From: Thermus aquaticus
GTDB taxonomy: Bacteria > Deinococcota > Deinococci > Deinococcales > Thermaceae
Direction of reading: 5' to 3'
DNA length: 39,020 nt
NCBI RefSeq assembly: GCF_001280255.1
Contig: NZ_LHCI01000106.1
Span: 1,911,856 to 1,950,875 of the forward strand
The translations under genes were made by a program, and so were the position numbers. Shown here piece after piece: positions 567 through 38,805 of this stretch; position 1 is the stretch's first letter, and the number at the start of each line of letters is the position of its first letter. A model generated the notes under the pieces. The model ran no database searches, was not told where the DNA came from, and saw nothing but the letters and a program-made list of their open reading frames with translations.

Positions 567-1883
567 ATGCGGGCCTTCATTGAGGAGATCGCGCGCCACG
601 AAGGGCAGGAAGTAGAGCTAAGGGGCTGGGTCTACGGAAAGCGCTCCAAGGGCAAGATCCTCTTCCTGATCCTCCGGGACGGGACCGGCTTCCTGCAGGC
701 CACGGTGGTCAAAGGGGAGGTCCCCGAGGAGGTCTTCCAAAGGGCCGACCACCTGCCCCAGGAGACCGCCCTCAAGGTGTGGGGCCTGGTGCGGAAGGAC
801 GAACGCGCCCCCGGGGGGTACGAGCTTGCCGTACGGAACCTGGAGGTGGTGAGCCTCCCCCAGGGGGAGTACCCCATCGGCCCCAAGGAGCACGGCATTG
901 ACTTCCTCATGGACCACCGCCACCTCTGGCTCCGCCACCGCAGGCCCTTCGCCGTCATGCGCATCCGGGACGAGCTAGAACGGGGCATCCACGAGTTCTT
1001 CGGCGAGCGGGGCTTCCTGCGCTTTGACGCCCCCATCCTGACCCCCAGCGCCGTGGAGGGCACCACCGACCTCTTTGAGGTGGACCTTTTTGACGGAGAG
1101 AAGGCCTACCTCTCCCAGTCGGGCCAGCTCTACGCCGAGGCCGGGGCCATGGCCTACGCCAAGGTCTACACCTTCGGCCCCACCTTCCGGGCGGAAAGGA
1201 GCAAGACCCGGCGCCACCTCCTGGAGTTCTGGATGGTGGAGCCCGAGGTGGCCTTCATGACCCACGAGGAGAACATGGCTCTCCAGGAGGAGCTTGTGCG
1301 CTACCTGGTGGGCCGGGTCCTGGAACGGCGGGCCAGGGAGCTGGAGATGCTGGAGCGGGACCCCAAGGCCCTGGAACCCGCCGCCCAGGGCAACTACCCC
1401 CGCCTCACCTACAAGGAGGCCGTGGCCCTGGTGAACCGCCTGGCCGAGAAGGACCTCGAGGTCCCCCCCCTCCCCTACGGCGAGGACTTCGGGGCCCCCC
1501 ACGAGGCCGCCCTCAGCCGCCAGTTTGACCGCCCGGTTTTCGTGGAGCGCTACCCCGCCCGCATCAAGGCCTTTTACATGGAGCCGGATCCCGAAGACCC
1601 CGAGCTGGTCCTCAACGACGACCTCCTGGCCCCCGAGGGCTACGGGGAGATCATCGGGGGAAGCCAGAGGATCCACGACCTGGAGCTTTTGCGGCGCAAG
1701 ATCCGGGAGTTTGGCCTCCCCGAGGAGGTCTACGAGTGGTACCTGGACCTCCGCCGCTTCGGGAGCGTCCCCCACTCGGGCTTCGGCCTGGGGCTTGAGC
1801 GCACCGTGGCCTGGATCTGCGGCCTCAGCCACGTGCGGGAGGCCATCCCCTTCCCCAGGATGTACACCCGCATGCGCCCCTGA
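567..1883 (+). CDS. asnS: Asparaginyl-tRNA synthetase
   Basis: A 438-residue class IIb aminoacyl-tRNA synthetase, the length expected for Thermus AsnRS. An N-terminal OB-fold anticodon-binding domain (about residues 1-100, with [11 protein letters not shown]) is followed by the class II catalytic core. Motif 2 shows as [17 protein letters not shown] (residues about 210-226) and motif 3 as [10 protein letters not shown] near the C terminus. The RSKTRRH form of motif 2 and the short length favour AsnRS over AspRS, which is longer and carries an inserted domain in bacteria. It charges tRNA-Asn with asparagine in the cytosol. The start has only a weak ribosome-binding site. The 3' end faces pdxT across a roughly 300-base gap. 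Confidence 0.95.
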
Positions 1884-2187
1884 GGCCGGAGGCGTCCGGC
1901 TGACGCGCATAGGGGAGACCCCCTGGGCCGCCCGAAGCCCCGAGGCGGTGGCCCAGGGAAGGGGTTGCGGCCAAAGGCCCGGTCCCCGGACTCCCCACGG
2001 AGGCTGAGGAGAGGCTGACGTCCGACTCCCTTGCCGATACAACTCCCCTCCCACGGCCGGGCGGGGCAAGGGACGGGAAACCCCGCTCTCCGGGACCTCC
2101 CTTCTCTCCGGGAGGCCCTAGGCCACAGGGGCCTGAAAGCTTTCCGGGAAGGAAGCCCCCGGTTGCCTCTGGCCGGGACCCCGTGAG
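1884..2187. other. Convergent intergenic region with strong hairpins; possible structured RNA
   Basis: This 304-base gap lies between the 3' ends of asnS (+) and pdxT (-), so it cannot be a leader of either. No convincing ORF was found. Several self-complementary stretches can be read: CCCTGGGCC near 1919-1927 against GGCCCAGGG near 1949-1957; TCCCTTGCC near 2027-2035 against GGCAAGGGA near 2066-2074; CCTCCC/GGGAGG near 2097-2115; and GGCCC/GGGCC near 2113-2132. Some of these could simply be terminators for the two convergent genes. No match to RNase P RNA, tmRNA, SRP RNA or a known riboswitch core was recognised by eye. A free-standing small RNA is possible but unproven. Confidence 0.35.
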
Positions 2188-2763
2188 CTAGACCCCTGCC
2201 AGCTCCAGAAAGAGGCGGTGAAGGCGGGCGTCCTCCGTGAGCTCGGGGTGGAAGCTGCTGGCAAGAAGCCTTCCCTGGCGCACCAGGACGGGAAGGCCCC
2301 CAAGCTCCGCCAGGACCTCCACCCCCTCCCCTAGCCTGCGGAAGACGGGGGCCCGGATGAAGACCCCAGGGAAGGGACCGAGGCCCTTCACCTGCACCTC
2401 CTCCTGGAAGCTCTCCACCTGCCTGCCGAAGGCGTTCCGCTCCACGGCCACGTCCAGGACCCCAAGGCGAGGCTGCTCGGGGTAGCCCAAGATCTCCTTG
2501 GCCATCCAGATGGCCCCGGCGCAGGTGCCAAAGAGGGCCAGGCTCCCCTCCTCCACCCGCCGCCGCACCGCCTCCTCGAGGCCGTACTCCCGGGCCAGTT
2601 TGCCGATGGTGGTGGACTCCCCGCCGGGGACGATGAGGGCCTTAAGGCCCAGAAGGTGCTCGGGCTTGCGAACCTCTTTGGCCTCCACCCCAAGCCGCCT
2701 GAGGGCCTCCTTGTGCTCGCGGAAATCCCCCTGTAGGGCCAAGACGCCGACCACGCCCCTCAT
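2188..2763 (-). CDS. pdxT: Pyridoxal 5'-phosphate synthase glutaminase subunit PdxT
   Basis: Class I glutaminase that hydrolyses glutamine and channels ammonia to PdxS for PLP synthesis. The sequence opens with the family signature MRGVVGVLALQGDFREH. It contains PGGESTT, the nucleophile loop FGTCAGAIWMAKEI (catalytic Cys) and the C-terminal FHPELTEDARLH carrying the His and Glu of the triad. The start at 2763 is preferred over an in-frame start 27 bases upstream because the protein then begins at the conserved family N terminus and lies 7 bases after the uvsE stop. It is the last gene of a five-gene minus-strand operon. Its partner pdxS lies about 17 kb away, which is unusual because the two are adjacent in many bacteria. 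Confidence 0.95.
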   Translation of the reverse strand: MRGVVGVLALQGDFREHKEALRRLGVEAKEVRKPEHLLGLKALIVPGGESTTIGKLAREYGLEEAVRRRVEEGSLALFGTCAGAIWMAKEILGYPEQPRLGVLDVAVERNAFGRQVESFQEEVQVKGLGPFPGVFIRAPVFRRLGEGVEVLAELGGLPVLVRQGRLLASSFHPELTEDARLHRLFLELAGV

Positions 2764-2770
2764 CCTGGCC

Positions 2771-3631
2771 CTAGGCCCCCCTCTTGTCAAGGACGGGCTC
2801 TAAGGCCCTCTCCTTCCCCTTGGCCTCCAGCATGAGGTCGGCGGGGCCGGGCAAGGCCCCAAGGAGCCTCTCCCAGTCCTCCCGGGCCACGAAGAAGGCG
2901 TGGGCCCCGGGGCGCTTGCCAGGGTCCTGGCTGGAGAGGTGGACCTTGGGCCGGCCCCTCCAGGTGGAAAAGGCCAAGGCCAGGGCCTCCTTCAGGGAAA
3001 GCCGCCCGGGGTTTAAGGCGTGGTGGAGGGCGTCCACCACCACCCCCACCCCCAGGGCCTCGGCCGCTTCCAGGACCTCCTCCACACTCCAGAGCCTCTC
3101 GTCGTTTTCCAGGGCCAGGTAGCGGAGGACCTCGCCCTCTCCCCGGAGGTTTTCCACAAAGCGCCTGAGGGCCCGCCTCCGGTCCCCGTAGGCCCCGCCC
3201 AGGTGGAGGACCAAAACCCCTTCCTCGGCCTGGAGGAGGCTCAGGACCCGGGCCGAGTAGCGGAGCTCCGCCAGGGAGCGCTCCACCACCTTTGGGCTTG
3301 GGCTTCCCGGGTTCACGTACTGGCCGGGGTGCATGGAAAGCCGCTGGCCCAGAGCCCGGGCCAGGGCCCCCAGACGGGCGAGCTCCGCCCCATGGGCCCG
3401 CTCCCAGTCGTAGGGGAAGGCGGGGTGGGAGGCGAAGGGGATCAGGTGCTGGCCAATGCGGAAGAGGTGGAAGCCCTCCTTTGGGTTCCAGCGGAGGATC
3501 CTCTCCAGATCGGCCAGGTTCTCGGCCGCCTTGGCCCGGGCCCGCTCCTCCGAAAGCGAGGCCAGGCGCAGGGTGTGGTTGGTGCTGGCCCTGAGGGTCA
3601 GGTTCTCGCAGGGATAGCCCAGCCGGATCAC
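2771..3631 (-). CDS. uvsE: UV damage endonuclease (UVDE/UvsE)
   Basis: A 286-residue TIM-barrel metal-dependent endonuclease that nicks DNA immediately 5' of UV photoproducts and some other lesions. The family N terminus [15 protein letters not shown] is intact, with the lesion-probing Tyr6 and Asn10 in place. [13 protein letters not shown] (metal-binding His at about residue 101, Gln/Tyr just after), [20 protein letters not shown] and [12 protein letters not shown] supply further metal-site residues. The start is GTG, overlapping the yceI-like stop by four bases (GTGA), which implies translational coupling. A UVDE from T. thermophilus has been structurally characterised; this matches it in length and motifs. 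It sits in an operon just downstream of the rhodopsin gene. Confidence 0.93.
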
Positions 3632-5376: not shown

Positions 5377-6159
5377 TCAGGCGGCCTTGACTCCCTCCCC
5401 GAAGCCCTCCTCGAGGCTCTTCGCCCGGGCGATGGCGAAGACGAGGAGGCCGTAGATGGGCTTGGCGATGAGGTCGGCCAGGCTATACCCAAGCTGGATG
5501 GCCACTTCCTGGGCGGCCCCGCCGGGAAGCCAGGTGCCCAGGGCGTAGGCGATGGGGTAGAAGCCCCAGGACATCAGGAGGACGAGCCGAGTAGCACCGA
5601 GAAGCTCCAACACCCTGGGGCCGAACTTGGCCTCCCGGATGGCCTGGCCCAGCTCCACCCAGAGCACGTAGAGGATGTAGAAGAAGGGCACCGAGGACAA
5701 GGCCCCCCAGAGCGTCCGCGGACCGGGCTCGGTGTTGACCTCCCCCACGTACCCGAGGCCCAGCATGAGCACGGAGGCCACCACCAGCTTGATCCCCAGG
5801 TTCCAGGTGCGGGCCGCAGGGAGACCCAGCACCAGGATCAGCTCCAGGAGGAGAAGGGGTACGGTGAGGAGCCAGTCGGCGTAGCGGTAGAAGTCGTTGA
5901 AGGGCTTCCCCGTGGGCACGTAGACCCCTCCTTGCAGCTGGTAGGCCCCCACCCAGCTCTCAAAGATACGCAGGTAGTGATAGCCTGCGATGAAGACGAT
6001 CAGGGCGGAGAGGTAAAGGGCGATGTGGTACCTGGGGGCCACGTAGCTCCGCGCCAGGAGGAAGAAGACGAAGGCGGCGAACATCCCGGCGATGGTCAGG
6101 GAGAGCATGTTGAACACCAGCCAGTACTGGCCAAAGCTCAGTTCCGGAAGCATCCGCAT
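5377..6159 (-). CDS. Thermophilic rhodopsin, light-driven outward proton pump
   Basis: A 260-residue seven-helix microbial rhodopsin. Counting from the ATG at 6159, helix C reads RYADWLLTVPLLLLE, giving R92, D95 (Schiff-base counter-ion), T99 and E106 (proton donor), the D-T-E pattern of outward proton pumps of the proteorhodopsin/xanthorhodopsin group. H61 in GYHYLRI matches the conserved helix-B histidine that pairs with the counter-ion. Helix G (GYSLADLIAKPIYG) supplies D229 and the retinal lysine K233. These numbers coincide with those described for thermophilic rhodopsin of T. thermophilus JL-18. Leu103, at the position equivalent to proteorhodopsin 105, predicts green absorption (inference). 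The start has the ribosome-binding site AAAGGAGGT. The retinal-forming blh gene is divergent next door. Confidence 0.96.
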   Translation of the reverse strand: MRMLPELSFGQYWLVFNMLSLTIAGMFAAFVFFLLARSYVAPRYHIALYLSALIVFIAGYHYLRIFESWVGAYQLQGGVYVPTGKPFNDFYRYADWLLTVPLLLLELILVLGLPAARTWNLGIKLVVASVLMLGLGYVGEVNTEPGPRTLWGALSSVPFFYILYVLWVELGQAIREAKFGPRVLELLGATRLVLLMSWGFYPIAYALGTWLPGGAAQEVAIQLGYSLADLIAKPIYGLLVFAIARAKSLEEGFGEGVKAA

Positions 6160-6311
6160 AACTCACGACCTCCTTTCTCGGCAGCCCGCCTGGGGCTTCA
6201 AGGCCATTAGAGAGCAAGGAAAAGGCGGAAACGTTTACCTACACAACATTTTGACAAAAGGTGTACACTACACCACAAACGCCTTTCTCAAGGCACGGGA
6301 AAAGATGAGGC
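6160..6311. promoter_or_regulatory. Divergent rhodopsin/blh promoter region with palindrome
   Basis: This 152-base intergenic region is distinctly AT-richer than its surroundings. It contains the 8-bp palindrome GTGTACAC (6261-6268), the palindrome AAACGTTT (6229-6236), and a direct repeat CTACAC at 6239-6244 and 6268-6273, 29 bases apart. TTGACA (6251-6256) and its complement-strand neighbour TTGTCA could be overlapping -35 elements for the two directions, but neither has a good -10 at 16-18 bases. Weak canonical promoters plus palindromes suggest activator or repressor control. TGTAC-type sites are reported for LitR/CarH-class light regulators, so light control is a testable inference only. 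Confidence 0.5.
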
Positions 6312-19456: not shown

Positions 19457-19475
19457 GCCCCCAGGGTAGCGTCAT

Positions 19476-19491
19476 TTGAGCAATCGTTCAA
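19476..19491 (-). promoter_or_regulatory. SmtB-type operator overlapping the smtB 3' end
   Basis: TTGAGCAATCGTTCAA is an imperfect inverted repeat (TTGA...TCAA arms with GC/GT inner flanks) resembling the imperfect 12-2-12 sites bound by ArsR/SmtB zinc sensors. It covers the smtB stop codon and precedes the ATPase ATG by about 20 bases. This would place zinc-dependent control of the ATPase inside the end of its regulator gene. Confidence 0.5.
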
Positions 19492-19859
19492 GTGTCTTCT
19501 TCCGCGTGGGCCAGGGCCCCCTCCAAGAGGGCCTCCACGTGCTGGTCGGCGAGGCGGTAGTAGACCTGCTTCCCCTCCCGGCGGAAGGCCACCAGCCGGG
19601 CCTGGCGGAGAAGCCTGAGCTGGTGGCTCACCGCCGAAACCGAGACCCCGGCCAGGAGGGCCAGGTCGCACACGCAAAGCTCCCCCGCCGCCCTTAGGGC
19701 CAGGAGGAGACGCATGCGGGTGGGGTCGGAAAGGGCCTTGAGGAGGAGGGCCGCCCTTTGCAAAAGGCCTTCCTCGGGAAGGGCGGCCCTGGCCCGCTCC
19801 ACCCTTTCCGGGTGGATCTCGTAGACCCCGCAGACCGCCCTACCAGCCCCGCTTGGCAA
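19488..19859 (-). CDS. smtB: ArsR/SmtB-family metal-sensing repressor
   Basis: A 123-residue winged-helix regulator. [43 protein letters not shown] is the classic ArsR core; the ELCVCDL segment carries the Cys pair used as the alpha3N metal site, and the C-terminal [17 protein letters not shown] fits the alpha5 His/Asp/Glu zinc site. An N-terminal Cys ([11 protein letters not shown]) may complete alpha3N. Metal binding in this family releases DNA. The only plausible start is TTG at 19859, which overlaps the pdxS stop by 20 bases. The downstream ATPase is the obvious target. Confidence 0.88.
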
Positions 19860-34553: not shown

Positions 34554-34577
34554 CGCCCCCGGTCTCAGGGCCGGGGG
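34554..34577 (+). terminator. Hairpin after tRNA-Ser
   Basis: CCCCCGG and CCGGGGG pair around an eight-base loop within a few bases of the tRNA 3' end, followed by CCTTCCTCT. The T content is low. The stem also covers the stop region of the truncated oxidoreductase on the opposite strand, so it may serve both directions. Confidence 0.45.
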
Positions 34578-35383
34578 CCTTCCTCTACCTCCACCACCCG
34601 CCCCGCCCTCCTGGCCGCCTCCGCCAAAAAGGTGAGCCGGTGGGCGTAGAGGACCTCCTCAAAGGGCTCCAAAAGCCCCGGGTCCTCCCGCTCAACCGCC
34701 GCCATGAAGGCCGCCATAAGCCCAAAGTCCCCGCCCCCGTATCCCGAACGGATGGACCCCTCCGCCTCCCCCTTCAGGTCCACGGTCCCTTCGCCCTTCA
34801 CAAAGTCAAAGATGCGGATGTACCGCCCGTCCCCCCAGATCTCCCCGCCCGTCCCAAAAAGCCGCGTCTCCCGAAAGCGCATCCGGGAAAGCCCCTCGGC
34901 GTGAAAGCTGGCCGTGCGGCCATCCCGGCACTCCAGGGCCACCACCTGGTGGTCGGCCACGTCGTTCTTTCCCCAATAGACGCACTCCCCGTAGGGGCCC
35001 TCCGCCAAAGCCCGCTCCAGGTTCTCCCGGGCCACCGGGAAGGCCACCACGTCCAGAGGCCAGCCCCGCTCCCCCCTCTCGTAGGCCTCCAGGTAGATGC
35101 GCCTGGCCGAGAAGGGGCAAGCCCTCTCCACCTCCTCGGGGCAGAGAAGGCACCGCTCCGCCGCCCCCTTGGGCCTCCTCTCCGGGCGGAAGTGGTAGAG
35201 GCCCCCGAAGGAGGCCACCCGGGCCACCTCCCCAGGCATCAGGAAGAGGAGCCAGTCCAGGTCGTGGACGCTCTTGGCCAGGAGGAAGGGGCTGGACTCC
35301 CCCTCCTTCCGCCAGTTGCCCCGCACGAAGCTGTGGGCGAAGTGCCAGTGGCCCACGGGCTCCAGGTGCTGGACCGAGACCAC
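34565..35383 (-). pseudogene. Gfo/Idh/MocA-family oxidoreductase lacking its N-terminal domain
   Basis: An open frame of about 272 residues that starts abruptly at VVSVQHLEPVGHWHFAHSFVRGNWR. This is an internal segment of Gfo/Idh/MocA oxidoreductases at the start of the C-terminal substrate domain, with later KSVHDLDWLLFLMPG and ETRLFGTGGEIWGDGRY. The N-terminal Rossmann domain (about 120-130 residues with GxGxxG and the EKP motif) is absent, and an in-frame TGA lies at 35390-35392, a few bases before the first codon. Without the cofactor domain it cannot work as a normal dehydrogenase. The break coincides with the edge of the accessory region near tRNA-Ile, so an insertion or deletion removed the 5' half. 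A retained short product from GTG 35383 is possible but unlikely. Confidence 0.75.
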
Positions 35384-35481
35384 CTGAGCTCATCCATGAG
35401 GCCATAGTCCTGACCCGAGAGAGGCTGAGGATAACCTGAGCTTTAGCCCTCGAGACCCCTCTCCCCTTCGCCCATCTCCTA

Positions 35482-35509
35482 TTGCGCAACACGATGCGGG
35501 CTCTATAAT
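35482..35509 (+). promoter_or_regulatory. tRNA-Ile promoter
   Basis: TTGCGC (35482-35487) and a perfect TATAAT (35504-35509) are 16 bases apart, with the tRNA beginning 13 bases downstream, close to the predicted transcription start. Confidence 0.8.
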
Positions 35510-35521
35510 GCCCCTGTGCCG

Positions 35522-35598
35522 GGGCCGTTAGCTCAGCTGGTGAGAGCGCCGGCCTTATAAGCCGGTGGTCGCGGGTTCAAGTCCCGCACGGCCTACCA
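35522..35598 (+). tRNA. tRNA-Ile with anticodon UAU
   Basis: A 77-base tRNA with CCA encoded. The acceptor is GGGCCGT/ACGGCCT with G-U at pair 1-72 and discriminator A. The D arm is GCTC-AGCTGGTGA-GAGC, the anticodon stem CCGGC/GCCGG, and the loop CTTATAA (35554-35560) gives TAT at 35556-35558. The T arm is GCGGG-TTCAAGT-CCCGC. The body and the GGCCTACCA end look like tRNA-Ile. UAU reads AUA directly, whereas most bacteria use a CAU anticodon modified to lysidine by TilS. The ileS T-box specifier is AUC and would sense the GAU isoacceptor, not this one. Confidence 0.93.
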
Positions 35599-35599
35599 G

Positions 35600-35967
35600 G
35601 CTTGAGTCTTCCCGGCTCAGGTTGCTGACCTAAAGCGTGAAGCAGGCCTCGAGGGGCGAGGTACCGAGGAGCGGGTATGGCGGTTGATGTGGAGGCGGGG
35701 CCAACCAGCTACAGGCCCCGTGGCCGGTGTGGGCCACCATCGCCGCCCCTCGGGGAAGGGGGCGGGCATTACTCCCCGCGGCCTTCACGCCCCCACCTCC
35801 TCAACTCTATGCGCCCTAAGGGGCCGATGTGCATAGAGTTGCGACGAATCTCTAGGGCTCTTTTGCATAAACCCCGCAAGCGGTCTTCGGGGAGAAGCGC
35901 GGGGCCAAGGCGGCCCGCATCCTCCGAGGGAAAAGGGGCCTCCAGGAGCGCCCCCTGAAGACCGGTC
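35600..35967. other. Non-coding accessory segment, possible mobile-element remnant
   Basis: These 368 bases after tRNA-Ile hold no convincing gene. A plus-strand frame beginning just after the tRNA reads through ADLKREAGLEGRG and on to about 35833; the KREAG tail faintly recalls the ends of IS605-family TnpB proteins, but the catalytic and zinc-finger parts are absent. At 35677-35958 a 93-codon ORF has poor codon usage and was not accepted. The clearest structure is the inverted repeat at 35802-35841. A second GC-rich hairpin, CCCCGC/GCGGGG, lies near 35873-35920. Confidence 0.3.
35802..35841. repeat. 11-bp perfect inverted repeat with structured loop
   Basis: CAACTCTATGC (35802-35812) and GCATAGAGTTG (35831-35841) are perfect complements separated by 18 bases that themselves contain GCCC-TAAG-GGGC. 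The AT-rich arms contrast with the surrounding GC-rich DNA. It could be an element end, a recombination site or a terminator without a T-run. Confidence 0.7.
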
Positions 35968-36237
35968 CTAGATACCCTCAGGGAGCTTTGGGGGCTCCAG
36001 GCCGTAGCGGGAGACCACGGCCCGGATGTCCTCCACCAGGCGGGAAAGGCGTTCCCTCTCCTCGGGGGTGGTGGGGCGTGCCCGCTTCAAGAGGCCGTAC
36101 AGGTGGCCCAGTTCAGACACCTCACTCAGCCACTCCTGGTCGTCCCAGTCATCGGGGTTGAGGAGAGCGTCCCGGATGACGGGCCAGTACTCCTCAGCCC
36201 AGTTGAGGAGAGCCTGGGGGTCGTCTCCTCTCAACAT
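35968..36237 (-). CDS. Small acidic protein of unknown family (copy A)
   Basis: An 89-residue protein from the ATG at 36237, chosen because AGGAGG sits five bases upstream; an ATG six codons earlier is less well placed. No family was recognised. It is acidic, helical and Trp-rich: LLNWAEEYWPVIRDALLNPD, DWDDQEWLSEVSELGHLY, ERERLSRLVEDIRAVVSRYG. It shares a pattern with the divergent gene at 36743: NPDDWDDQEWLSEV here and NPEDFDDDYVLAEV there, followed in both by a leucine-rich helix, a TPEE/NPEE turn and a final basic helix ending in LE. The two are probably diverged paralogues. No signal peptide or membrane segment. Confidence 0.75.
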   Translation of the reverse strand: MLRGDDPQALLNWAEEYWPVIRDALLNPDDWDDQEWLSEVSELGHLYGLLKRARPTTPEERERLSRLVEDIRAVVSRYGLEPPKLPEGI

Positions 36238-36742
36238 GAGTCCTCCTGGGGCCATTATGGCCGGAGAAACCGCCCGAGGCGAGGCCCCCTCGAGGCCCGG
36301 TCAAGGCCGGGGGGAGGCCTCCCCCTGCAAACTTGTGCCTTCCCTTCACGATGTGGGAGGCCCTTCTCACCGTAGCCCCACCGCCGCCGCGGCCTGACCC
36401 TCGAGGCCCAGGAGGCCTCCCGGGGCCCCTCCCCCAGGCCCCGGGCCAGGGCCTCTTGGGGTAGCCCCCCCAAGTCCTTTTAGAAAGAAGGGGGAAGCGA
36501 ATAGCCGCAATAGCCGCAATAGCCGCGAAGCCCGTCTGGTAGGGCATTTCTGCCTGCGGCTATTGTGCGGCTATTGCGGGGAAGAGGGGGCGAATAGCCG
36601 CAAGTGGGCATGCCGTCCTGGAGAGCGTTTGCGGCGTTCGCGGCTATTACCCCGCCGCTTTTTCTAAAAGCCAGGGGCCAGGCCGGCCTCGAGGGCCGTG
36701 GTATCCTCTCCCTAAGAAGCCGCCCTAAGGAAGGAGGCCCCG
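36238..36742. promoter_or_regulatory. Divergent region between the two small genes
   Basis: This 505-base region separates copies A and B. Its centre (36480-36670) is an imperfect inverted duplication. Reading outward from the middle in either direction one meets GCGGCTATT repeats and then a CTTTCTAAAAG-type block: CTTTCTAAAAG on the minus strand near 36478-36488 and CTTTTTCTAAAAG on the plus strand near 36658-36670. Each arm therefore looks like the leader of one gene. Between the left block and gene A are about 240 bases of GC-rich DNA with palindromes such as GGAGGCCTCC near 36411-36420, and no accepted gene. Gene B follows its block by about 75 bases with the site AAGGAGG. Confidence 0.6.
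36500..36648. repeat. Array of seven 9-bp repeats (AATAGCCGC) in alternating orientation
   Basis: Direct copies of AATAGCCGC lie at 36500-36508, 36509-36517, 36518-36526 (three in perfect tandem) and 36593-36601. Inverted copies, GCGGCTATT, lie at 36556-36564, 36567-36575 and 36640-36648. The arrangement allows two stem-loops: 36509-36526 with 36556-36575 (two 9-base stems with a 2-base bulge, 29-base loop), and 36593-36601 with 36640-36648 (38-base loop). The repeats contain the AT-rich core of an otherwise GC-rich region. They could be iteron-like protein sites, a cruciform or RNA hairpins. A short open frame reads the tandem copies as repeated Ala-Ala-Ile on the minus strand but loses coding character afterwards. 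Confidence 0.9.
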
Positions 36743-37033
36743 ATGGAGGAAGAGTTCAAGTGGCCCAGCCCGTTGGAGAGGGCCAGAGACCGTTGGGAAA
36801 CGCTGAAGGAGATGCTGGCCAACCCGGAGGACTTTGACGATGACTACGTCCTGGCCGAAGTGTTGGAGTTCCCCATCCTCCTTGACCAACTGCAGAGGGC
36901 CTACCTCGAGAACCCCGAGGAGGTGCGGGCCATCGTGCGGGAGATTTGCGAGCGGAAAGAGGAGCTGAAGCGGGTGCTGGACCTCGAGGTCAGGGAGGCC
37001 CTTCTGCCCGGGGGGTGCGAGGGAGAGGGTTAG
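36743..37033 (+). CDS. Small acidic protein of unknown family (copy B)
   Basis: A 96-residue protein with a good ribosome-binding site (AAGGAGG, six bases before ATG). No family was recognised. It is strongly charged and helical: SPLERARDRWETLKEMLANP, EDFDDDYVLAEVLEFPILLD, NPEEVRAIVREICERKEELK, RVLDLEVREALLPGG. The NPEDFDD segment and the helix pattern after it match copy A (35968-36237), which is transcribed in the opposite direction. Codon use is typical of the chromosome. The pair, the shared leader block and the repeats between them look like a duplicated unit. The next gene on the plus strand is mgtE, 350 bases on, from its own promoter. Confidence 0.8.
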   Translation: MEEEFKWPSPLERARDRWETLKEMLANPEDFDDDYVLAEVLEFPILLDQLQRAYLENPEEVRAIVREICERKEELKRVLDLEVREALLPGGCEGEG

Positions 37034-37140
37034 GACTCTTCTTCATAGGCCAGGAGGTCCTGAACGCCGTAGGGCTTGCCCGTGAGCTTCCGTAGGCCCC
37101 AGCCCACAGGGTTGACAAAACCTCCCTCACCCCCTACCCT
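37030..37140 (-). pseudogene. Probable 3' fragment of a minus-strand gene
   Basis: An open frame on the minus strand ends at 37030 with roughly 30 residues that look coding: GGFVNPVGWGLRKLTGKPYG then VQDLLAYEEES and a TAA stop, mostly with G or C in third positions. Upstream the same frame stays open to about 37311 but turns into low-quality sequence opposite the mgtE promoter and leader. It overlaps the end of copy B by four bases. It may be the remnant C terminus of a gene, perhaps of plasmid or phage type, or a short real gene. The family is not recognised. Confidence 0.35.
37112..37140 (+). promoter_or_regulatory. mgtE promoter
   Basis: TTGACA (37112-37117) and TACCCT (37135-37140) are separated by exactly 17 bases. 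This predicts a start near 37147 and so an untranslated leader of about 237 bases before mgtE. The spacer and -10 form one copy of an imperfect 23-base direct repeat whose second copy is near 37215-37238. Confidence 0.7.
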
Positions 37141-37146
37141 GAAAAG

Positions 37147-37383
37147 GGTATGCGGAGAGGAGGTGAGACCAAGGTGCGAGAAGAAGGCCCGCAAAGTCAC
37201 CCAGGCCCTTGGGAAGCCTCCCTCTCCACCTTCCCTTCCCCCTAAAACGCCAAATCGGCTCTCCCAAGGGTGAGGCCAACGGCAAAAGTTGCCCCTAGGC
37301 GCTTTCCTCATAGGTCGCGCTCGAGGGGTATGGCCTGGAACGTTCGTTTCCAGGGATCAAGGAAACCCTTACGAGGTGGAGCC
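37147..37383 (+). promoter_or_regulatory. Long mgtE leader, possible Mg2+- or translation-responsive regulator
   Basis: The predicted leader is about 237 bases, unusually long for this compact genome. It contains a strong Shine-Dalgarno, GGAGGTGA (37159-37166), far from mgtE and suited to a leader ORF at 37174. Hairpins include CCCA/TGGG (37199-37213), GGCAA/TTGCC (about 37281-37293) and CCTGGAA/TTCCAGG (37334-37354), the last 30 bases before mgtE. The mgtE start has its own GAGGTGGAG site. Early bases AGGTGAGACC superficially resemble an M-box, but the rest of that riboswitch was not found. Confidence 0.45.
37174..37245 (+). CDS. Candidate leader peptide upstream of mgtE
   Basis: A 23-codon ORF starts at GTG 37174, seven bases after GGAGGTGA, one of the strongest ribosome-binding sites in the window, and ends with TAA at 37245. 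It begins Met-Arg-Glu-Glu-Gly-Pro and contains five prolines (HPGPW in the middle, FPSP at the end). An overlapping frame from GTG 37163 (36 codons, to 37273) is even richer in proline (KPPSPPSLPPKTP) but its start lies within the Shine-Dalgarno. Codon use is weaker than in normal genes. By analogy only, the mgtA leader of Salmonella has a short proline-rich ORF through which ribosome behaviour controls a Mg2+ transporter. Confidence 0.4.
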   Translation: MREEGPQSHPGPWEASLSTFPSP

Positions 37384-38748
37384 ATGCCTTTGGTCTGCCG
37401 GAACCTCATGAGCCTTTTGGAGGAAGGAAACCTGCAGAGCGTAAAGCTCCTCCTGGGGCAAGCCAGCCCCCAGGAGATCGTGTTTTGCCTTAGGCTGTTG
37501 GAGTCCCCCCGCAGGGCCCTTGTCTTCCGCCTGCTGGACAAGGAGCGGGCCCTGGCCGTCTTCGAGGCCTTGGACCGCCCCGAGCAGGCCGAGCTGGTCA
37601 AGGCCATGGAGGACCCCGACCTCCTGCCCCTCTTGGAGAGCCTGAAGGCAGAGGAACGGGTAAGGCTTTTTGAGGAGCTCCCTGCCAAGGTGGTCAAGCG
37701 GCTCCTGCAGGAGCTCTCCCCAGAGGCTCGGGAAGGGGTCAGCCTGCTCCTGGGCTACCCCGAGGGTAGCGCAGGCCGGGTGATGAACCCGGATTACCTG
37801 GCCCTCCCCGAGGAAACCACGGTAGAGGAGGCCTTGAAGCGGGTGAAAGACTCCCCACTTCCCACAGAGAACCTGGAGGTGATCTTCGTGCTGGGGCCGG
37901 GCAGGATTTACCAGGGCTACGTGCCCCTGGCCCGGCTCCTCAAAGCGGACCCCCAAACAACCCTAAAGGACCTGGCGGTGGTCGGGGCCGCCGTCTCCGC
38001 CTACGACTCCCAGGACCAGGTGGCCGAGCTGTTCAAGCGCCACCAGTACCCCCTGGTGGCGGTAGTGGACAAGGAGGGGCGGTTGGTGGGGGCCATCGAT
38101 GCCGAGCGCGGTGTGGAGCTGGTGGAGGAACACGAAGCCCAACGGCTCACCACCTTTGGGGGCATCCTTCCCCCAAAAGGCCCCGACGTGGACTACCTCA
38201 GGAGCCCTCTGGGCGTACTCTTCCGGACCCGGGTGATCTGGCTAGCCCTTCTGACCCTCTTTGGGGTCTTCGTCTCCACCTACGTGGCCGAACAGGAGGA
38301 GGTCCTGGAGCGCGTCATCGTCCTCGCCGCCTTCATCGCCCCCATCATCGACATGGGGGGGAACACGGGTAGCCAGGCGGCCACCCTGGTCATCCGCTCC
38401 CTGGCCCTGGGGCAGGTGCGGCCGCGGCTCAGGGACTACCTCCTCATCCTCAGGCGGGAGGTGCCCGTGGCCCTAAGCCTGGGCATCGTCATCGGCATAC
38501 TGGAAGCCGTCCTGGCCTTCTTCTCCAAAGGCGTGGGTTGGGACATCCTGCTGGTGGTGGGTCTGGCCATGACCACGGTCACCATCCTCGGGGGCTTGAT
38601 CGGCTCTGCCCTTCCTTTCCTGGCTAAGCGCTTCGGCGTGGACCCCGCCACGCTAAGCGGCCCCGCCATCACCTCCATCATGGACCTCCTAGGGGTCTTC
38701 GTATACTTCGGCTACGTCCGCCTCTTTCTGGGCCACCTGCTGGAGTGA
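37384..38748 (+). CDS. mgtE: MgtE-family magnesium channel/transporter
   Basis: About 454 residues from the ATG at 37384, preceded by GAGGTGGAG; a longer frame back to 37270 lacks coding character and was trimmed. Domains follow the MgtE plan: an N-terminal helical superhelix (about 1-130), two CBS domains (MNPDYLALPEETTVEEAL and AYDSQDQVAELFKRHQYPLV; about 130-255), a connecting helix, and five membrane helices. The pore motif PIIDMGGNTGSQAATLVIRS is intact, and the Asp of SIMDLLGVFVYFG corresponds to the conserved pore Asp of T. thermophilus MgtE. It admits Mg2+ and is gated by cytoplasmic Mg2+ through the N and CBS domains. Confidence 0.95.
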   Translation: MPLVCRNLMSLLEEGNLQSVKLLLGQASPQEIVFCLRLLESPRRALVFRLLDKERALAVFEALDRPEQAELVKAMEDPDLLPLLESLKAEERVRLFEELPAKVVKRLLQELSPEAREGVSLLLGYPEGSAGRVMNPDYLALPEETTVEEALKRVKDSPLPTENLEVIFVLGPGRIYQGYVPLARLLKADPQTTLKDLAVVGAAVSAYDSQDQVAELFKRHQYPLVAVVDKEGRLVGAIDAERGVELVEEHEAQRLTTFGGILPPKGPDVDYLRSPLGVLFRTRVIWLALLTLFGVFVSTYVAEQEEVLERVIVLAAFIAPIIDMGGNTGSQAATLVIRSLALGQVRPRLRDYLLILRREVPVALSLGIVIGILEAVLAFFSKGVGWDILLVVGLAMTTVTILGGLIGSALPFLAKRFGVDPATLSGPAITSIMDLLGVFVYFGYVRLFLGHLLE

Positions 38749-38805
38749 GCACGGAGGCTGAGCTCTCATCCCTTCGTGTGCTACTTGACCCAACCCCTGG
38801 GGTGT

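Follow-up and report, generated by a model that had tools for sequence, protein, structure and literature searches.

The window, a stretch of 39,020 nucleotides from Thermus aquaticus, contains two small genes, A and B, that point away from each other on either side of a repeat array. Gene A (35968-36237, minus strand) encodes 89 amino acids and has AGGAGG directly 5' of its ATG; gene B (36743-37033, plus strand) encodes 96 amino acids. Both have open frames and AGGAGG-type ribosome sites, and both proteins are acidic. That two related small acidic genes flank the array, as the preliminary description of the locus had it, was confirmed: a single BLASTP comparison aligned 56 amino acids at 38% identity (E 5e-9), and the alignment score of 91 compared with a mean of 29 and a maximum of 58 for 2000 shuffles (z 11.3). 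The family had not been recognised at that stage, and no known family was found here either, since profile searches of A and B in Pfam, NCBIfam, PHROGs, PADLOC and PDB yielded nothing significant, a match to the PrlF antitoxin (E 0.2) included. An AlphaFold model of B was all-helical (pLDDT 89), and a fold search with it returned a helical-bundle background and nothing else. P0002 gave no match to genome contigs, viral contigs or phages.

Between the genes lies an origin-type block (36477-36670) of mirror-image 9-bp iterons with AT-rich ends on both sides. The block end CTTTTAGAAAG (36477-36487, plus strand) is followed by three tandem iterons AATAGCCGC on the minus strand (36500-36526; starts 36500, 36509 and 36518), a first spacer of 29 bp (36527-36555), a length kept in most relatives with differing iterons, and two iterons GCGGCTATT on the plus strand (36556-36575; starts 36556 and 36567). 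One iteron AATAGCCGC on the minus strand (36593-36601) then precedes a second 29-bp spacer (36602-36630), a degenerate iteron GCGGCGTTC (36631) with a further GCGGCTATT (36640; together 36631-36648, plus strand) and the block end CTTTTTCTAAAAG (36658-36670, plus strand), giving the order <<< > > < degenerate > >. Exact copies of GCGGCTATT or AATAGCCGC numbered seven in the 39-kb window, all at 36500-36648, where 0.10 were expected under a dinucleotide model, and one strand of the array folded better than 200 of 200 shuffles (z -6.0). The DNA between the genes had been described as an imperfect inverted duplication; this holds for the array of ~195 bp, to which the inverted symmetry is confined, and not for the leaders and genes, which lie outside it. 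Searches of viral contigs with the iteron 18-mer yielded 12 chance matches, none of them with the block.

The left flank of the locus is an oxidoreductase-like chromosomal gene (34565-35383, minus strand) with its 5' part missing. An 81% match to the relative G019 ends at 35381, while the gene goes on in G019, placing the left border of an inserted relic at ~35382. Two segments beyond this border are common to a second locus, L009, situated ~200 kb away in the same genome. The first (35446-35641, plus strand; 98%) includes a tRNA-Ile(UAU) (35522-35598, plus strand) with an identical copy at 6438-6514 of L009; the second (36285-37102; 95-96%) includes the array, gene B and the tail of an Xre-like regulator. 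The regulator gene survives as a C-terminal remnant (37030-37102, minus strand) cut at 37102/37104, where the homology switches from L009-like DNA to the mgtE region of another locus. This mgtE-type transporter region (37104-38758, plus strand) is 94% identical to a different locus of G018 and interrupts the element, into which it was apparently brought from another source. The mgtE-type gene is the second in the genome; the G018 copy is 94% identical in DNA, that of G025 61% in protein and others mostly ~33%. Approximately 4 kb past the window lie an integrase remnant, its ORF split into two frames, and tRNA-Ala(UGC). The left att copy of the relic is lost. The relic also contains, on the same contig past the window (L031, ~718-3021), transposase-like ORFs and a masked stretch of N.

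The sister element in L009 occupies 13.4 kb between 46-bp repeats of the tRNA-Arg(UCU) 3' end (~6137-6182 and 19458-19503). It carries two regulator genes, one ImmA-type and one Xre-like, a copy of B (93% identical) and a DUF4411 gene, together with genes for RecT, a Toprim primase, a helicase, a methylase and a tyrosine integrase (PF00589, E 9.7e-28); no structural genes were found among the ORFs searched. Empty sites were identified in two relatives, G019 (oxidoreductase - tRNA-Ala) and G018 (tRNA-Ser - tRNA-Ala), both of which are without an insert. In G025 (L102, 1385-1430, and L103) tRNA-Ala(UGC) has been occupied independently: its 3' end is duplicated over 46 bp, and a related integrase region is present (72% DNA identity). 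The element and its empty site can be read directly from the sequences. The sister, the empty sites and the separate occupation of tRNA-Ala indicate that what the window contains is the left portion of a decayed element of the tRNA-integrated type. The earlier suggestion of a remnant mobile or plasmid locus is borne out by the sister element, the att repeats and the empty sites in relatives.

None of 26 further genomes from the genus has the tRNA-Ile(UAU), which is consequently regarded as element-borne. A UAU anticodon for tRNA-Ile is unusual in bacteria. The idea that this tRNA serves ATA codons of the iteron stretch was unsupported, with 12 ATA in 2973 element codons.

Two further copies of the array were found in this genome, both in L009, where they are ~6 kb apart and mutually inverted. 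The sister copy of the window array has one extra 9-bp unit at the second iteron group (window 36631-36648). The other L009 block falls within the 3' end of the helicase gene, where it encodes IAANAANAA. Aligned with the helicase block, the window block fits better in the reversed orientation (score 110 vs 55.5 for the L009 copy), and on the minus strand the displaced block of L009 reads IAANAANAANALQDGMPTCGY where the helicase reads IAANAANAAKPLQDGTPDCGY. From these two observations, the window block is a copy of the helicase 3' end that is inverted, carries a frameshift and was cut at both AT-rich ends. The displaced copy was found in this genome only and may therefore represent a dead duplication. 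A small transposable element with the CTAAAAG ends as its terminal repeats was also considered and ruled out, because these ends are conserved helicase codons (LLER / LSK).

In Thermus and Meiothermus, where homologues of the helicase occur near tRNA genes, ten full-length relatives carried a single 9-mer cluster at the 3' end of the gene. The 9-bp words were GCGGGGGTT or GCGGGGGAT, GCGGTGGTT, GCGGTAGAT and those of the GGTGACATT group; close elements have a common word, and lineages differ in their word. The layout begins with an AT-rich TTTTAGAAA-like end (in some), three reverse units, a 29-bp spacer, usually containing a CCAGGACG-like sequence, and a forward unit. After a variable middle come one reverse unit, another 29-bp spacer, three forward units and, at the end, a TTTCTAAAA-like sequence. 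Deviations in detail occur in L147 and in the GGTGACATT group. Across 18 large loci, a 9-mer was present at least five times in seven of 1358 windows of 250 bp, and all seven were these clusters. Iterons were absent from the distant helicases L148, L152-L155 and L158, and the Methylobacterium plasmid relatives L192 and L193 had no cluster at the gene end. A helicase relative with 39.7% identity is encoded by pH6Ac, a 12-kb plasmid of the archaeon Methanothrix, and possesses mirror-image iterons in the same position. The pH6Ac array (L191, 4329-4603; NC_016637.1) is built from the iterons GGAGGCGGT and GGAGTACAT, arranged as two mirror half-sites that flank an A-rich stretch; it sits in the 3' end of a Prim-Pol/helicase gene and is a candidate origin. 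The view of the locus as a duplicated unit of leader plus small gene is not supported by these data, as the array itself is mirror-symmetric within helicase genes of other elements and L009 carries the array and B without A.

From the homology of layout, the case of plasmid pH6Ac and the turnover of words, we infer that the array is a displaced copy of the putative replication origin of this element family; the homology of the blocks, their layout and their lineage-specific words are evident at the level of sequence. The locus as a whole is probably a decayed ICETh2/PICI-like element with a displaced origin copy and orphan immunity genes, A and B. In the mechanism proposed, the C-terminal domain of the AAA+ initiator helicase would read the element-specific 9-bp word; searches of the helicase against Pfam gave weak AAA matches, and no DNA-binding domain was mapped. 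The helicase would assemble on the two mirror half-sites (<<< 29 bp > and < 29 bp >>>), possibly in the form of two rings that face away from each other, melt nearby AT-rich DNA and then load itself, leading to replication of the excised circle. As the words change between lineages and the layout remains constant, the recognition code between helicase and iterons is directly testable.

Satellite phage P4 has an alpha protein with a cis replication site and a second cis site. L009 resembles it in its primase/helicase logic and in having two separated sites; in contrast to P4, the second site is found in this genome alone and may be a decayed duplicate. The block might thus be a regulatory or inc-like site that titrates the helicase of the sister, represses transcription or acts as a P4-like second cis site. 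This we consider possible but unlikely: the two mutually inverted blocks of L009 would be in keeping with it, as would the dependence of P4 on the alpha protein together with its cognate cis site (PMC6092414), but ten helicase relatives have a single block and the displaced block resembles decayed coding DNA. A further alternative arises because every intact relative has the block in frame, inside its helicase gene, so that the conservation of the block could partly reflect the protein tail. That the array is nothing other than a repetitive tail of tripeptides (e.g. IAAIAAN), with no role as DNA, is nevertheless highly unlikely, because the encoded peptides differ wholly (AAN, PAT, TAT, PPQ, NVT) while the DNA layout, strand symmetry and 29-bp spacers persist, the units lie on both strands, and the displaced copy is frameshifted and yet nearly identical in the window and L009.

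By analogy, the closest known design to the proposed origin is the Rep-iteron origin of SaPI/PICI, placed in an ICETh2-like chassis. SaPI Rep recognises iterons directly 3' of its own gene via its C-terminal domain, apparently as two hexamers, and SCCmec Cch2 binds iterons in a similar manner, likewise via the C-terminal domain (PMC7581432). Two mirror-image half-sites would suit two rings. The elements described here share with these systems (PMC7581432, PMC6092414) a putative initiator helicase that has short iterons of its own at the gene end, an adjacent primase and a size of ~13 kb. L009, at 13.4 kb, is within the 12-15 kb of PICI/SaPI elements, and shares with them an integrase and, among the ORFs searched, the lack of structural genes. 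Unlike the SaPI/PICI origin, located just 3' of rep, the repeats here are within the 3' end of the helicase gene, and they differ further in the two mirror half-sites, the fixed 29-bp spacers and the displaced second copy; no helper phage is known. The ICETh2-like elements of Thermales are 8-13 kb in length with a tyrosine integrase, a tRNA-3'-end att repeat of 45-50 bp and a replication module with a helicase (PMC7693054). Correspondingly, L009 has a direct repeat of the tRNA 3' end (46 bp) at both ends and a tyrosine integrase beside the tRNA; a Toprim-type primase stands in place of the Ppol of ICETh2-like elements. The best-studied relative, ICETh2, exhibited little replication after excision in the laboratory, and the accessible text of that report, in which its replication was studied, mentions neither iterons nor an origin found (PMC7693054). 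The blocks described here indicate a likely replication origin for the tRNA-integrated elements of Thermus and Meiothermus.

Homologues of A and B were sought by profile search in 111 genomes of the order, yielding 25 members in 18 genomes, all of one family (Thermaceae). This gene family has its home in a Mu-like prophage whose genes include those for terminase, portal, MuF and tape-measure-like proteins. Seventeen of the 25 homologues lie directly beside a particular MuF C-terminal domain, and each of the 17 Thermaceae loci with this domain, remnants in G021, G063, G002 and G020 included, has a directly adjoining A/B-type gene. In seven pairs the genes overlap, the partner starting 37-49 nt before the end of the domain ORF. 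Distances among partners and among C-terminal domains covary (r 0.91; 0 of 5000 permutations), which is no proof of binding since adjacent genes covary by shared descent. A small ORF has been found after 89% of MuF toxin genes as opposed to 26% of short MuF genes (PMC5576092), and in the present set a small ORF lies directly downstream of the MuF gene at all 17 loci, unlike the copies in the window. As in the MuF polymorphic toxins (PMC5576092) and PBECR proteins (PMC5512222), a MuF head protein, a BECR-like C-terminus and a small adjacent ORF occur together; in contrast to those systems, the domain and its partner match no sequence family searched in Pfam, PHROGs, PADLOC or PDB, and the window carries its copies as orphans, on a mobile element of another type. 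One toxin-domain sequence from the same genus as the window is 100% identical to a sequence of Thermus tenuipuniceus.

The MuF toxin-like domain is absent from the genome of the window. Orphans comprise A, B, the L009 copy and the tandem pairs of G008 and G056. A resembles the partners found with the G062/G021 subtype (53-54% identity), and the nearest relative of B is the G010 partner (43%). Since all 17 domain loci adjoin an A/B-type gene, A and B, which represent subtypes A and B of the immunity-like proteins, are best read as putative orphan immunity genes against two toxin subtypes. They would be cargo of the element, encoding immunity proteins that bind and block two subtypes of a BECR-like RNase, the C-terminal domain of MuF head proteins in Mu-like prophages of Thermaceae. 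In G050 (L122, L140) a B-like gene comes after the MuF C-terminal domain and an A-like gene after that, the two genes being separated by a residual toxin tail, an order that resembles the immunity-gene arrays of polymorphic toxins.

The BECR pattern consists of a helix with His and four to five strands with Ser or Thr in strand 4 (PMC5512222); here there are four strands, with Thr. A BECR-like C-terminus was noticed in the MuF proteins ahead of any fold search. The model of the C-terminal domain (pLDDT 65) has the BECR order with His64 and Thr144 in place, and the pattern is present in the model and in most of the alignment, some members being without His or Thr. Family-library searches of the domain gave no match naming it. 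The top structural neighbour was 6cp9, a BECR tRNase, with Z 4.5 (next entry 3.3). Because Z below 8 can reflect common arrangements, this value is suggestive of a BECR-fold RNase toxin and does not amount to proof. No sequence similarity was found to this nearest structure, the CdiA-CT Kp342 tRNase, and the Kp342 immunity protein is mostly beta, in contrast to the all-helical model of B; for other CDI toxins of the BECR type, immunity proteins that are entirely helical have been described (PMC9086364). The 6cp9 tRNase cleaves tRNA-Ile(GAU), and any link to the tRNA-Ile(UAU) of the element is speculation.

The partners of the C-terminal domain might alternatively serve in structure or assembly and not as antidotes. 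The PBECR domain at the C-terminus of phage Mu gpF has been described as inactive (PMC5512222), and pairing alone does not demonstrate toxicity; the alternative is credible, if unlikely, as immunity is the better fit to the orphan copies that lie on elements and to the tandem arrays that have no head genes (G008, G056, G000, G050). The toxicity of the domain and the immunity function of A and B are putative. That A and B are instead a regulator pair acting on the repeats to control divergent promoters, as had been proposed, is most improbable: the genes do diverge from the array, and B and the array are kept together in both elements of this genome, but 22 of the 25 homologues belong to genomes that lack these repeats or lie away from the repeat-bearing loci searched, 17 adjoin the MuF C-terminal domain, relatives of the repeats are found in helicase genes, no DNA-binding family or fold match was obtained for these acidic proteins, and no sigma-70-type promoter-like site was found.

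A decayed element with a displaced origin copy and orphan immunity genes is mostly an explanation of a known kind, combining an integrative-element relic, a SaPI-like displaced origin and orphan immunity. As far as the searches here show, what is new is the origin inside the helicase gene with its fixed mirror layout and lineage-specific words, and the family of toxin domain and partner. The latter offers, in thermophiles, a candidate MuF toxin-like domain that has no name as yet, together with its putative immunity family, and suggests that immunity genes of the MuF type move onto other mobile elements. It is rather unlikely that the displaced origin copies are functional, the L009 helicase acting in trans on the relic block while A and B guard the host from Mu-like phage toxins. 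Were this the case, a near gene-less remnant could be amplified together with gene B, possibly along with adjacent chromosomal DNA, or could act as a decoy limiting the sister, and one mobile element would join an initiator-embedded origin, a spare origin and immunity to phage toxins.

Two further A/B relatives were observed outside these settings. In G020 (L131) a homologue and a truncated toxin tail lie directly next to an apparent CRISPR array, and in G015 (L081, 9932-10171) a frameshifted A-like relic lies ~50 bp from the tRNA-Arg(UCU) att site, as used by L009.
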